A DNA stretch of 64,000 bases from Flavivirga abyssicola (lineage in GTDB: Bacteria; Bacteroidota; Bacteroidia; Flavobacteriales; Flavobacteriaceae): assembly GCF_030540775.2 (NCBI RefSeq), contig NZ_CP141266.1, positions 3,149,001 through 3,213,000 of the forward strand. The letters run 5' to 3'. Positions 31,451 through 62,567 of the stretch are shown here, in pieces; within the stretch, counting starts at the first letter, position 1, and each line of letters starts with the position of its first letter. A program made the translations under genes and the position numbers. The notes below the pieces were generated by a model. The model was not told where the DNA came from. It was given only the letters and a program-made list of their open reading frames with translations, and ran no database searches.

Positions 31451-32143
31451 TTAAATTAATACAGAGTATATAATACCCGTGGTTATTGATATTCCAAAAC
31501 TAATTAAAGTGCCTATTAAAATATATTCTGTAAGCTGTCTGTCTTTTAACTCTCCAAACCTAAAAACAGATTTTGCTGTAATTAAAAAGCCTACAGCTTC
31601 CCAATGACCAGCAATTATAAATATAAACACTAAAATACGCTCTAAAATACCAATATATTTACCGGCATCCTTAAGGGAATCATTATTTTTAGTAAGTTCT
31701 GAAATATTCCACTTTAAAAAAATGGTTTTCATAATTATAGAGACAGGAATTGTTAAAAATAATAAACAGATTAGCAACAAAAGGTTATTTTCTGTTATAT
31801 AAGGTTTTAGATTAAATGTATTATCTGAATAGAAAAAATAACACCCAATAATCACTAATATGTGTAATAGTTGATCTATGAAAAAGAACAATCGTTTTGT
31901 TTTTTCATTTTGAAGGGTAAGTTTTAAGCCATCAATAATTAAATGAGAAATACTTATAATTAGTACAAACGGCCATAGCGATATATCCCAAAGTAATACT
32001 ATTAATAGTATAATATGAATTAATATATGTATATATAGCTTTGGGGATTTTAATTTTTTCTTTTCTTTTTCCTTCACCCATTTTTGGGGTTGCAGAAAAA
32101 AATCACCGATTAGATGGGCTAATAAAAGTTTAAGTAGTATCAT
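31451..32143 (-). CDS. DUF3307 family membrane protein
   Basis: This 230-residue protein starts LLKLLLAHLIGDFFLQPQKW, the family signature, with GDFFLQ and HLIIDGLK as the conserved polar spots between about six helices. Function is unknown. In many genomes it is paired with SatD, as here: the two genes overlap by four bases (ATGA). A shared role is therefore likely, with SatD regulating and the membrane protein as effector. That is inference from gene order. Confidence 0.85.
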   Translation of the reverse strand: MILLKLLLAHLIGDFFLQPQKWVKEKEKKKLKSPKLYIHILIHIILLIVLLWDISLWPFVLIISISHLIIDGLKLTLQNEKTKRLFFFIDQLLHILVIIGCYFFYSDNTFNLKPYITENNLLLLICLLFLTIPVSIIMKTIFLKWNISELTKNNDSLKDAGKYIGILERILVFIFIIAGHWEAVGFLITAKSVFRFGELKDRQLTEYILIGTLISFGISITTGIIYSVLI

Positions 32144-32769
32144 ATTAAAGTATCTATTTTTTGTCTGTACATATGGTCTAGCTCCATAATTTCGTCTAGG
32201 TGCGCTCGTTTTTGTCTAGAACTTACAGCATTTTGATTAATGCCGATAAGTTTACCTAATTTACTTTGTAGTGTATCGGGCTTTTCAATACTTAGTTTAA
32301 CTATTTCAGCAGAGTTGGTCGTCCAGCTATCCATGGTTATCAACGCTAACTTGAAGTATAAATTAAGCTCGTTATCTATCTCAGAATAATTTGTTTTAAT
32401 CCGAAGGTTTTGTTTTTCTTTTTTTAATGTTTCCAGTGTTTCTCCGGAAAATATAAATGCTTCTCCATTAGATTCTGTTACATTTTCGCCTTCATAAGTT
32501 TTATTGCCAATACCAATAGCTAAGCGCACATCTAAACCATGAATAGATTTTATACTGGCTTTTATATATAAAGCAGCTATAAAACTGGAACGAATATCTT
32601 TAATTTCTATTTGAAAACTGTCTCCACGATATATTTCCCAATACGCTTTATCATTACTTAAATAATCTAATGCTCCCTTAAGTACTTTTATCCAGATTTC
32701 TGGGTTTACTTGGGCTCTAGACTTAATAATATCACCCGTTATAACACTTGTTATTGTATTCGATATCAT
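32140..32769 (-). CDS. SatD family DNA-binding regulator
   Basis: The protein has 209 residues. The N-terminal domain has the family motif VITGDIIKSR and YRGDSFQIEIK, resembling a nucleotide-cyclase-like fold. The C-terminal part LQSKLGKLIGINQNAVSSRQKRAHLDEIME is a helix-turn-helix candidate. Its start lies two bases from a four-fold palindromic array (32771-32874) that looks like its own operator. Together with the four-base overlap with the DUF3307 gene this points to an autoregulated regulator-membrane protein pair. What it senses is unknown. Confidence 0.85.
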   Translation of the reverse strand: MISNTITSVITGDIIKSRAQVNPEIWIKVLKGALDYLSNDKAYWEIYRGDSFQIEIKDIRSSFIAALYIKASIKSIHGLDVRLAIGIGNKTYEGENVTESNGEAFIFSGETLETLKKEKQNLRIKTNYSEIDNELNLYFKLALITMDSWTTNSAEIVKLSIEKPDTLQSKLGKLIGINQNAVSSRQKRAHLDEIMELDHMYRQKIDTLI

Positions 32770-32770
32770 A

Positions 32771-32874
32771 TATCACGTTTTTATGCGATAAACAAATATA
32801 TCACATTATTACGTGATAAACAAATATATCGCGTTATTACGTGATAATTTAATATATCATGTTATTGTGTGATA
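32771..32874. promoter_or_regulatory. array of four 20-bp palindromes with an exact 28-bp period (putative SatD operators)
   Basis: Four units start at 32771, 32799, 32827 and 32855. Each has TATCRY, eight bases, then GYGATA; the clearest is TATCAC-N8-GTGATA at 32799-32818. Spacers of eight bases are AACAAATA in the first two and ATTTAATA in the third. The array fills nearly the whole gap between rmuC and satD. Tandem palindromes next to a regulator start suggest cooperative autoregulation. Confidence 0.8.
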
Positions 32875-32885
32875 AATAAAAATTA

Positions 32886-34205
32886 TTAATTATCTTCTTC
32901 GGCACGCTTTATAATGGCTTCTGGCAATGCTTTTTTAGCTTTAGCTCCCATTTTTTTAAGTTTTTCAACACTTGTAACTAGGTTACCTTTACCATCAACT
33001 AGCTTATTCATAGCTGCAGAGTAATCATTTTTTGCTGCATCAATTTTTTTACCAACACCTGTTAAATCCTTTACCAAGCCTTCAAATTTATCGTATAAGG
33101 CACCAGCTTGTCTAGCTATTTCTATAGCATTTCGTTGTTGCTTTTCATTATTCCACATGGTATCGATGGTACGAAGTGTGGCCAATAAGGTAGATGGTGT
33201 TACGATAACAATGTTTTTCTCGAACGCTTTATTGTATATGGAGTTATCTTCATTTACTACAACAGCAAAAGCTGGTTCTATAGGAATGAACATGAGTACA
33301 AAGTCTGGCGATTCAATATCATATAAATCCTGGTAATTTTTTTCCGAAAGTTGATCGACATGCTTCTTGATAGAGTTAACATGTGCTTTTAAGAATGGTA
33401 TTTTATCGTCATCTTCGGCATTTACCAAACGTTCGTAATCTGTTAATGATACTTTGGAGTCAATAATCATTTTTTTGCTATCTGGAAGATGTAAAACGAC
33501 ATCGGGTAAGACCCTGGAGCCATCATCTAAAGTAAAGCTTTGTTGTACAAAATATTCTCTGTCTTTTTCTAATCCGGATTTTTCAAGAACACGTTCTAAA
33601 ACCAATTCGCCCCAATTTCCTTGCATTTTGCTATCTCCTTTTAAGGCTTTGGTTAGGTTGGTAGCCTCTTTAGTCATTTGTTGATTAAGATCTTTTAAGC
33701 CTAATAATTGTTCCTTTAAAGCAGAATGCATACTGATGCTTTCTTTTTGCGATGCTTCTACTTTTTTCTCAAAACCTTGTATCTTTTCTTGTAGAGGACT
33801 TAAAATATTTTTGATATTTTCTTTATTCTGAAGTGTGAATTTTTCAGACTTTTCATCTAATATTTTGGTAGCTAATAACTCAAAATCTTTACGTAATTGT
33901 TCCTGACGCTCCTCTATCTCTTTATCACGTTTTAAATTTAATTGTTGCAGGTTTTCATACTCCGTATTTTTTCGGGTTAACTTAGCATTTAAAAACTCTT
34001 TTTCTCTTCTTATCTCTTCACGTTCACTTTCAACTTTACCTAAATTTTGCTTTAACTCATCAATCGTAACATGCATTTGATTTTGGCGTTCTTCCAGCGT
34101 GCTTTTCTCGCTTTTACTTTTTAGTTTAGTGAATAAGATGCCTAAATAACCGCCAATTGCTGCGGAAATAAGTATAGAAATTATAAGAATAAGGTTGTCA
34201 TTCAT
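32886..34205 (-). CDS. rmuC: DNA recombination protein RmuC
   Basis: This 439-residue protein has an N-terminal membrane helix (4-24), a long coiled coil (about 30-190) and the RmuC nuclease-like domain (about 190-400). MQGNWGELVLERVLEKSGL and LPDVVLHLPDSKKMIIDSKVSL include the PD-(D/E)xK-type residues, and VLMFIPIEPAFAVVV follows. RmuC limits DNA inversions at short inverted repeats. It is upstream of satD on the same strand. The operator array between them could control only the satD side. Confidence 0.93.
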   Translation of the reverse strand: MNDNLILIISILISAAIGGYLGILFTKLKSKSEKSTLEERQNQMHVTIDELKQNLGKVESEREEIRREKEFLNAKLTRKNTEYENLQQLNLKRDKEIEERQEQLRKDFELLATKILDEKSEKFTLQNKENIKNILSPLQEKIQGFEKKVEASQKESISMHSALKEQLLGLKDLNQQMTKEATNLTKALKGDSKMQGNWGELVLERVLEKSGLEKDREYFVQQSFTLDDGSRVLPDVVLHLPDSKKMIIDSKVSLTDYERLVNAEDDDKIPFLKAHVNSIKKHVDQLSEKNYQDLYDIESPDFVLMFIPIEPAFAVVVNEDNSIYNKAFEKNIVIVTPSTLLATLRTIDTMWNNEKQQRNAIEIARQAGALYDKFEGLVKDLTGVGKKIDAAKNDYSAAMNKLVDGKGNLVTSVEKLKKMGAKAKKALPEAIIKRAEEDN

Positions 34206-60764: not shown

Positions 60765-62567
60765 TTATCGTCTTGATCGTCTAGGTTTAAATGCGCCAGA
60801 ATTACCGGAATCAGAACGTCTTGGTTTTGAAGCGCCTTCAGAGCGACGTCTTTCACTTCTGTTTCCAGAGCCAGACCTTCTATCGTCGCGTCTTCCACCA
60901 CCTTTTCTATCATCACGCCTTCTGCCTCGGTTTCTGTCGCCTCGTCTTCCACCACCACGATTTTCTGATACTTCAACATTTACAAAACGACCTTCGTGTT
61001 TAAAGTCTGTAAAGAAAGCCAATACTTTTTCCTTTAATTCATTTTCAGTATTAAAAAACGAGAAGCTATCTTTTACTTCGACTTTAAAAACATCATCTCT
61101 TCCAAGTTGTAACTGTTCTTTTAAGAAGTCTTTTAGCTTCATCCAGTCAAAACCATCTTTATTGCCAACATTTATAAAGTAGCGTGTAGAATTGGACTTG
61201 CCTCCAAAATCACGTCCACCGTCTCGATCACGACCACCATCATCAGAAACATTTAGGTTTTTAGATTTTTGATAATAATTATAGAAACGTGTAAACTCAA
61301 CAGAGAAGAACTTTTTAATCAATTCATCCTTATCTGTGTCTTCAAACAATTCGTTAATACTTGATAAATGCTTATCAATTTCATGATTAATCTCAGTGTT
61401 ATGTATTTTATTAGCAAGAGACATTAATTGTACTTCACAAATTTCCGCTCCATCCGGAATATCTTTTTTCTCGAATTGACGTTTAATAATACGCTCAATA
61501 CTTTTTATTTTACGTACCTCACTTTTAGAAACAATCACCATAGAAACCCCTGTTTTACCAGCTCGTCCAGTTCGTCCAGAACGGTGAGTATACGTTTCGA
61601 TTTCGTCTGGTAATTGATAATTTATAACATGGGTAATATCGTCAACATCAATGCCACGCGCAGCTACATCCGTAGCTACTAGTGTTTGTATCTGTTTATT
61701 TCTAAACGATTTCATGACTAAGTCACGTTGGTTCTGACTTAAATCACCGTGTAAAGCGCCAGCACTATATCCATCTTCAATGAGCTGTTCTGCTACTTTC
61801 TGAGTGTCTCGTTTGGTGCGACAAAATACTACCGAGAAAATATCTGGGTTGGCGTCCGATAATCGTTTTAAAGCTTGGTAACGATCTCTGGCATTTACTA
61901 AATAATATTCGTGCGATACATTGCTTGTACTTTCATTTTTATTTCCAACCGTAATTTCCTGTGGACTACTCATGAATTTTTTAGCAATAGTAGCTACTTC
62001 TTTTGGCATGGTTGCGGAAAATAACCAAGTGCTTTTGTCTTCAGGGGTATGAGAAAGTATATCCGTTATATCTTCCTTAAAACCCATATTCAGCATCTCA
62101 TCAGCTTCATCTAAAACAGAATATTGTATTTTAGAAATATCAACCATACGTCTGCTAATCATATCCTTCATACGTCCAGGAGTCGCTACAATAATTTGCG
62201 CGCCTCTTTTCACCTCTCTAGCTTGGTCAGTAATACTAGATCCACCATAAATAGCAACGACATTAAGGCCTTTACAATACTTTCCGTATTGCTTCATTTC
62301 GTTGGTAATCTGTAAACAAAGCTCTCTAGTTGGAGATAAAATTAAACCTTGTGTAGTTCTGCTATTGACATCAATTTTTTCTAGCATAGGGAAACCAAAT
62401 GCTGCTGTTTTACCAGTTCCTGTTTGGGCTAATGCCACTAAATCTGATTCAGACTCTAATAAAATTGGGATTGCTTTTTCTTGGACTTCACTTGGTTTTA
62501 TAAACCCTAAATCTGTAATTGCTTGTAATAGGTCGTCATTAAGACCTAATTCTTGGAATGTGCTCAT
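60765..62567 (-). CDS. deaD: DEAD-box RNA helicase, DeaD/CsdA type
   Basis: The 600-residue protein has the Q motif (FIKPSEVQEKAIP), motif I AQTGTGKTA, VLDEADEMLNMGF, SAT and HRSGRTGRAGKTG. Residues about 445-525 hold a DbpA-like RNA-binding domain (RYFINVGNKDGFDWMKLKDFL). The tail (about 530-600) is a low-complexity RGG/RRxD region that binds RNA. It unwinds structured RNA in ribosome assembly and cold adaptation. It has a structured leader with a -7 box (62568-62703). Confidence 0.94.
   Translation of the reverse strand: MSTFQELGLNDDLLQAITDLGFIKPSEVQEKAIPILLESESDLVALAQTGTGKTAAFGFPMLEKIDVNSRTTQGLILSPTRELCLQITNEMKQYGKYCKGLNVVAIYGGSSITDQAREVKRGAQIIVATPGRMKDMISRRMVDISKIQYSVLDEADEMLNMGFKEDITDILSHTPEDKSTWLFSATMPKEVATIAKKFMSSPQEITVGNKNESTSNVSHEYYLVNARDRYQALKRLSDANPDIFSVVFCRTKRDTQKVAEQLIEDGYSAGALHGDLSQNQRDLVMKSFRNKQIQTLVATDVAARGIDVDDITHVINYQLPDEIETYTHRSGRTGRAGKTGVSMVIVSKSEVRKIKSIERIIKRQFEKKDIPDGAEICEVQLMSLANKIHNTEINHEIDKHLSSINELFEDTDKDELIKKFFSVEFTRFYNYYQKSKNLNVSDDGGRDRDGGRDFGGKSNSTRYFINVGNKDGFDWMKLKDFLKEQLQLGRDDVFKVEVKDSFSFFNTENELKEKVLAFFTDFKHEGRFVNVEVSENRGGGRRGDRNRGRRRDDRKGGGRRDDRRSGSGNRSERRRSEGASKPRRSDSGNSGAFKPRRSRR

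Follow-up and report, generated by a model that had tools for sequence, protein, structure and literature searches.

Tandem palindromes in front of satD-like genes: a candidate operator whose half-sites track a predicted recognition helix

The satD-like locus and its four-unit array

As listed in Table 1, the window (the whole stretch of 64,000 nucleotides of Flavivirga abyssicola DNA analyzed here) carries on its reverse strand a satD-like gene, followed by a gene for a DUF3307 membrane protein and preceded by rmuC. Between rmuC and the satD-like gene lie 116 bp, which are filled by a tandem array of palindromes, as the first-pass annotation had it.

Table 1. Features of the satD-like locus. 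Positions are those of the window; functional assignments of the units and boxes are putative.
Feature	Position	Strand	Basis or remark
satD-like gene; N-terminal nucleotide-cyclase/GGDEF-type domain and C-terminal helix-turn-helix	32140..32769	-	
Predicted recognition helix, residues 179-188; Asn180, Ala181 and Ser184 are the half-site-tracking positions	32206..32235	-	
DUF3307 membrane protein, 4-base overlap with satD, presumed same operon	31451..32143	-	PF11750, E 8e-32
Candidate operator unit O1, nearest satD: TATCGC-N8-GTGATA	32771..32790	-	sequence and pattern search
Candidate operator unit O2: TATCAC-N8-GTGATA	32799..32818	-	sequence and pattern search
Candidate operator unit O3: TATCAC-N8-GCGATA	32827..32846	-	sequence and pattern search
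Candidate operator unit O4: TATCAC-N8-ATGATA	32855..32874	-	sequence and pattern search
Putative -7 box TATATTTG, consistent with TAnnTTTG; O2 ends in its TA	32793..32800	-	
Second TATATTTG, 28 bp upstream	32821..32828	-	sequence and family-wide phase
rmuC, upstream neighbor, outside the module	32886..34205	-	upstream in 40/167 loci

The satD-like product has 209 residues, and its closest named relatives are proteins of Flavivirga species (86–88% identical). The name satD, used in the first-pass annotation, applies to the window protein only indirectly. This protein gave no significant Pfam or NCBIfam match, and in particular no match to PF16264 (SatD) at E values up to 1; within the genus, PF16264 was matched in 0 of 12 genomes, and in 3 of 21 relatives in all. 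Among 72 homologues (alignment A1), on the other hand, 51 matched SatD PF16264 (best E value 1.2e-12) and 42 matched Sigma70_r4, both at E up to 0.1. The sequences of this alignment have nearly invariant residues in common and are homologous over most of the protein length, and some of them, such as G001 and G310, have matches to PF16264 as well as to the window protein. We call the window protein SatD-like, its link to PF16264 running through these homologues. The family is said to take its name from the sat operon of Streptococcus mutans, reportedly described by Kremer in 2001.

A predicted model of the protein (pLDDT 95) shows helices at residues 168–175 and 179–188, in what classes as a DNA-binding domain; residues 180, 181 and 184 all lie on the second of these helices. 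One homologue (L249) was excluded from the structure alignment owing to a stop codon. The modeled N-terminal domain matches the folds of class III nucleotide cyclases, GGDEF domains and GTP cyclohydrolase III, the identities quoted ranging from 13% (MA1120) to 19% (GTP cyclohydrolase III); a sequence search of solved structures with the SatD-like protein returned a single match at chance level (E 0.25). Asp13 and Asp50 are conserved in SatD-like homologues and, judging by their strand and hairpin positions rather than by superposition, may be equivalents of the metal ligands. The SatD-like domain differs from these known enzymes in being fused to a helix-turn-helix, and its activity is putative.

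The DUF3307 gene lies directly downstream of the satD-like gene in 163 of 167 loci, which bears out the pairing that had been noted for the window. The DUF3307 protein contains eight invariant His/Asp residues, all in its N-terminal half, a pattern that we take to recall a membrane metal-dependent hydrolase. Its predicted model (pLDDT 89.6) had no PDB match at E up to 0.001, an absence that shows nothing.

The four palindromes, of the form TATCxx-N8-xxGATA, follow each other at a constant step of 28 bp, precisely as first described. Tandem Repeats Finder delimits the array as 32768–32880 (period 28, 4.0 copies, 82% matches, 0 indels), and its score of 142 was the highest among the 39 rows for the window. 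Another tandem repeat of the window (60878–60956, 27 bp, 2.9 copies) is separate from the satD array. The palindrome arms, 6 bp long, are imperfect; the inner spacer and the linker between units both measure 8 bp, and the TATnnn half-sites flip orientation every 14 bp. Only base 32770 lies between the first palindrome and the start codon. That 28 bp does not correspond to an integral number of helical turns, another point of the early description, is correct: at 10.5 bp per turn the step amounts to 2.67 turns, neighboring units are rotated by 240 degrees, and the same face of the DNA recurs at every third unit, three units making 8.0 turns.

When up to three mismatches were allowed, TATCACGTNNNNACGTGATA matched the window at the four array units only; in 100 shuffles the same pattern gave a mean of 0.18 matches (maximum 2), and four matches were never reached (0/100). 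Across the whole genome, TATCRYGT-N4-ACGYGATA with at most one mismatch picked out three of the four array units and no other place, the fourth unit (32855) having two mismatches, as do seven places elsewhere in the genome. The looser TATCRY-N8-RYGATA occurs at 15 sites genome-wide, four in the array and 11 elsewhere. A reversed control pattern occurs at 10 sites, meaning that single sites outside the array are at chance level. A regulon beyond the satD operon was rejected on this count. One of the closest stray sites (L005) falls within an open reading frame.

Conservation of the array across relatives

Of 299 genomes of the family, 163 contained a satD-like homologue; in an overlapping phylum sample the count was 91 of 395. 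From these matches 110 and 66 loci, respectively, were taken, picked by hand to cover a range of identities reaching past the top-scoring ones. They comprised 174 distinct loci, of which two had no tblastn match, and the remaining 172 were reduced to 167 by dropping duplicate proteins.

Within the 190 bp upstream of each gene, the best self-match lag (lags 14–49) was 28 in 132 of the 167 loci and 29 in 22. We scored each region for three tandem 20-bp palindromes, with a threshold of 41.5. This threshold was exceeded upstream of 151 of the 167 satD-like genes, and in no shuffled control (0/167) and no in-gene control (0/167). Among regions 300–600 bp upstream, 2 of 166 exceeded it: one belongs to L177, whose own long array extends there, and the other, of L186, scored 42.0. 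The period was 28 bp in 129 of the 151 arrays, 29 bp in 21 and 30 bp in one; three units were counted in 116 and four or more in 35. Several of the 16 loci below threshold have two visible units, and some have none. In a second set, made up of 73 new proteins, 66 had an array and 7 fell below threshold. The score carries a small bonus for the outer TAT/ATA, so that conservation of these letters is partly by construction; it is also seen in bonus-free scoring, among the rows listed.

The array is kept upstream of most satD-like genes in a phylum-wide sample; the first-pass annotation had proposed such a comparison for Flavobacteriaceae. Its description of the array as unusually regular and multi-copy did not hold up, since a tandem array of at least three units with a 28- or 29-bp period is the norm for the SatD-like gene family. 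A link of the array to rmuC was also considered and rejected: the flanks inspected (about 1.2–1.5 kb) place rmuC upstream in a minority of loci (Table 1), and a change of the upstream gene leaves the array in front of satD, so it belongs to satD and not to rmuC.

Comparison of units within arrays, like the per-letter tests below, was confined to 147 of the 151 (four were dropped, their consensus not beginning with TAT or TGT). At the 12 core positions, identity between units was 0.867, against 0.323 expected from composition; in the linkers it was 0.471, against 0.424 expected, and yet the linkers keep a length of 8–9 bp. Matching cores alongside linkers close to chance argue against recent duplication and for copies that are old and selected. 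It looks as if linker spacing is under selection and linker sequence is not. Slippage can yield tandem 28-mers, and a functionless, neutral tandem duplication is one conceivable origin of such repeats; given linkers that differ almost as by chance next to cores matching at 87%, a period kept across the phylum sample, and half-site letters that recognition-helix residues predict (see below), we attach next to no weight to it.

Half-site letters and the recognition helix

The outer TAT of the units is almost constant, and the next three letters differ widely by lineage (TATCAC, TATTCC, TATCGG, TATTAG and others), with 24 different core triples among the 147 arrays. These letters follow residue 184 of the SatD-like protein. 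Gln184 goes with (T/A)A(G/T) (41 arrays; TAG in 21, AAG in 13, TAT in 4), Glu184 with C(G/T)(G/T) (34 arrays; CGG in 11, CTG in 11, CGT in 10), Lys184 with TCC (18 of 22 arrays) and Arg184 with TAC (15 of 18). With Ser, Thr, Met or Asn at this position, CAC or CAT is found in 10 of 14 arrays; the window itself combines Ser184 with TATCAC.

We assessed this relationship with a leave-relatives-out test, in which the prediction for each locus drew only on loci whose N-terminal domains differed by more than 45%. Mean letter accuracy was 0.724 for column 184 (128 predictions), 0.556 for column 181 and 0.513 for column 180, and these were the top three of the 209 columns, for which the median was 0.368. 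For 41 of 63 arrays of the second set, residue 184 was enough to predict the whole triple, and it gave 159 of 189 letters correctly (three of the 66 arrays, not beginning with TA or TG, were dropped); many of these proteins are near relatives of training loci, and the leave-relatives-out test is the stricter of the two.

With N-terminal distance controlled, column 184 stood out, with a partial correlation of 0.473 with half-site distance, followed by columns 198 (0.228), 180 (0.225), 200 (0.185) and 181 (0.179); columns 198 and 200, second and fourth in this ranking, are not part of the recognition helix. Taken as a whole, the C-terminal region showed no advantage over the N-terminal one (0.137 vs 0.139). 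Co-change with the half-site on the tree was 2.8-fold for column 184, 4.0-fold for 181 and 2.2-fold for 180, modestly above a background in which N-terminal columns reached 2.3-fold. Among 168 columns compared over 62 disjoint close pairs, 181 ranked first, 180 second and 184 ninth (p 0.008), the low rank of 184 arising partly because letters vary inside the class while Gln184 stays. Tree co-change and disjoint pairs lend weaker support than the leave-relatives-out test.

A comparable approach, protein–DNA correlation in the MerR family, is reported to have been validated on known complexes (PMC5045206). Our analysis resembles that study in correlating residues and site letters position by position with phylogeny reduced, and it differs in concerning another family and in resting, for the SatD-like protein, on a predicted model only.

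From the tracking of half-sites by recognition-helix positions, the SatD-like protein very probably binds the array. The competing notion, that a different regulator binds there and the satD-like gene merely adjoins, could in principle accommodate half-sites that track a co-inherited regulator. It leaves it unaccounted for that the top three of 209 predictor columns are recognition-helix positions of the SatD-like protein itself and that the array accompanies satD despite changes of the upstream gene, and we consider it very improbable.

Some arrays are mixed, with TATTCC units next to units of the TATCAC or TATCGC type in one 28-bp register (L026, L030, L031, L033 and L061). Residue 184 suits the gene-nearest units in L026 and L031 (Met) and does not in L033 and L061 (Lys). 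Such arrays are as expected under a unit-by-unit replacement of specificity.

Promoter overlap and proposed mechanism

The housekeeping promoters of Bacteroidota have a -7 element, TAnnTTTG, whose G precedes the start site by about 5 nt, and in Flavobacterium johnsoniae the -33 element is weak (PMC6847099, PMC7366714, PMC9723704). Between array start and ATG, the 147 arrays contain 134 TAnnTTTG, against 19.5 (sd 3.9) in shuffles, a comparison to be read with a background in mind that is raised by the AT richness of linkers and by ATA at unit ends; the near-match TAnnTTTA occurs 75 times. At least one TAnnTTTG is present in 85 of the 147 loci. In 28-bp arrays, 78 of 116 occurrences share one phase, at which the TA is formed by the final two bases of the palindrome. 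The promoter of some lineages is located downstream of the array.

Both TATATTTG boxes of the window fit this element, and the TTTG of the second could double as a -33 element for the first promoter. The satD start site is predicted at about 32788; O1 would cover this site and the leader, and O2 would fill the putative -33/-7 spacer. The overlap of sites with -7 boxes in many loci supports autoregulation and fits autorepression of satD-DUF3307.

With the array, its conservation, the link between half-sites and recognition helix, and the phase of the -7 boxes established computationally, we propose that the array serves as operator for a satD-DUF3307 operon under autoregulation, filled by dimers and repressing, a reading to which we assign a probability of about 0.8. 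The early suggestion of an autoregulatory operator gains support from both the helix/half-site tracking and the -7 box overlap. A SatD-like dimer would bind each TATnnn-N8-nnnATA unit, with each of its two recognition helices reading one 6-bp half-site. Contact between neighboring dimers is probable and would hold the linker to 8 or 9 bp irrespective of sequence; at 2.67 turns per unit and a rotation of 240 degrees, this contact would wrap around the DNA. The fixed spacing, taken by itself, would suggest cooperativity. In the window the units lie over the putative satD promoter, so that occupancy of the whole array would silence the operon. Relief would probably come from a nucleotide that the N-terminal, cyclase-like domain senses (or makes); such a signal is plausible.

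Alternatively, the SatD-like protein might bind the array and activate the operon, or work both ways depending on the units filled. In one group of loci the last palindrome lies 50–57 bp before the start codon, and some loci have a TAnnTTTG box roughly one unit downstream of the array, a placement that activation would also allow. Repression is better suited to a last unit at most 10 bp from the start codon, as in the window and in 60 of the 147 arrays, and to -7 boxes often embedded between units, so that activation seems unlikely. Far less credible still is that the repeats are leader RNA hairpins or transcription terminators: a short stem is possible in each unit, but arm mismatches show no G-U excess (190 G-T vs 232 A-C in 3872 pairs), there is little symmetry at inner positions 7–10 of the unit (0.44 and 0.38), transcription from the -7 boxes would not include the units upstream of them, and the coupling to a DNA-reading helix would be left unexplained.

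Autoregulatory helix-turn-helix repressors with multiple operators are familiar from phage repressors, MraZ boxes and type II antitoxins. The SatD-like case is like these in having its sites before its own gene, overlapping a putative promoter and coupled to a helix-turn-helix, and unlike them in a period locked at 28/29 bp, a non-integral number of turns, and in a half-site that drifts with the recognition helix. An autoregulator that acts through several operators is an old principle; what sets the present case apart is its locked period, a half-site that drifts and the fusion to a cyclase-like domain. The literature that we searched, which covered few subscription journals, gave no operator or DNA target for the SatD family or DUF3307.

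The little-studied SatD-like family would thereby gain a concrete, testable role, that of an autoregulator with a readable DNA code. Because residue 184 alone predicts most half-site letters, this code is directly testable in vitro. The 24 triples on a nearly fixed geometry amount to a natural experiment on a repressor and an operator that change specificity together with the spacing locked. A membrane module under nucleotide control is suggested by the cyclase-like domain together with the partner's invariant His/Asp residues.

In transposon screens of S. pyogenes, satD is reported as essential where present and yet accessory (178 of 249 genomes; PMC11323703). This essentiality is compatible with a regulator guarding a harmful partner. 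Together with the two-gene operon and the presumed autoregulation, it gives hints of a toxin-antitoxin module. A broader and more speculative picture, which we regard as doubtful, would be that of a nucleotide-responsive repressor filament, with a half-site every 14 bp on alternating strands and neighboring dimers about 240 degrees apart, assembled along the operator array and guarding a potentially harmful DUF3307 membrane enzyme. Such a stress- or phage-triggered module would occur in Bacteroidota and beyond, its specificity switched repeatedly via a few recognition-helix positions and its array rewritten unit by unit, for which the mixed arrays speak.

Searches of phage records for the SatD-like protein gave no matches, and plasmid records gave four, three of which were examined. 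No clear 28/29-bp array was seen in the Segatella locus L285 or in the Sphingomonas locus L287. The latter (Sphingomonas insulae plasmid NZ_CP048421.1) has satD-DUF3307 adjoining a Pycsar-type membrane effector (PADLOC E 8e-74) and a cyclase gene, with a TIR-domain gene a few genes away, a defense-island setting; the SatD-like and DUF3307 proteins of this plasmid and of the window had no match among PADLOC profiles at E up to 0.01. In the gammaproteobacterial Pseudoalteromonas piscicida (NZ_CP074588.1, L286), at a place where no gene is listed, a satD-like open reading frame is followed by a DUF3307-like one, and two GTAACC/GTTAC palindromes 28 bp apart can be made out by eye before the start codon, lag 28 being second by score. 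Three viral contigs with SatD relatives have arrays that pass the threshold, with a period of 29 bp. Among IMG/VR contigs, L278 and L279 carry SatD relatives together with DUF3307, and their 29-bp arrays have a GC-rich core, TGGCCGG.
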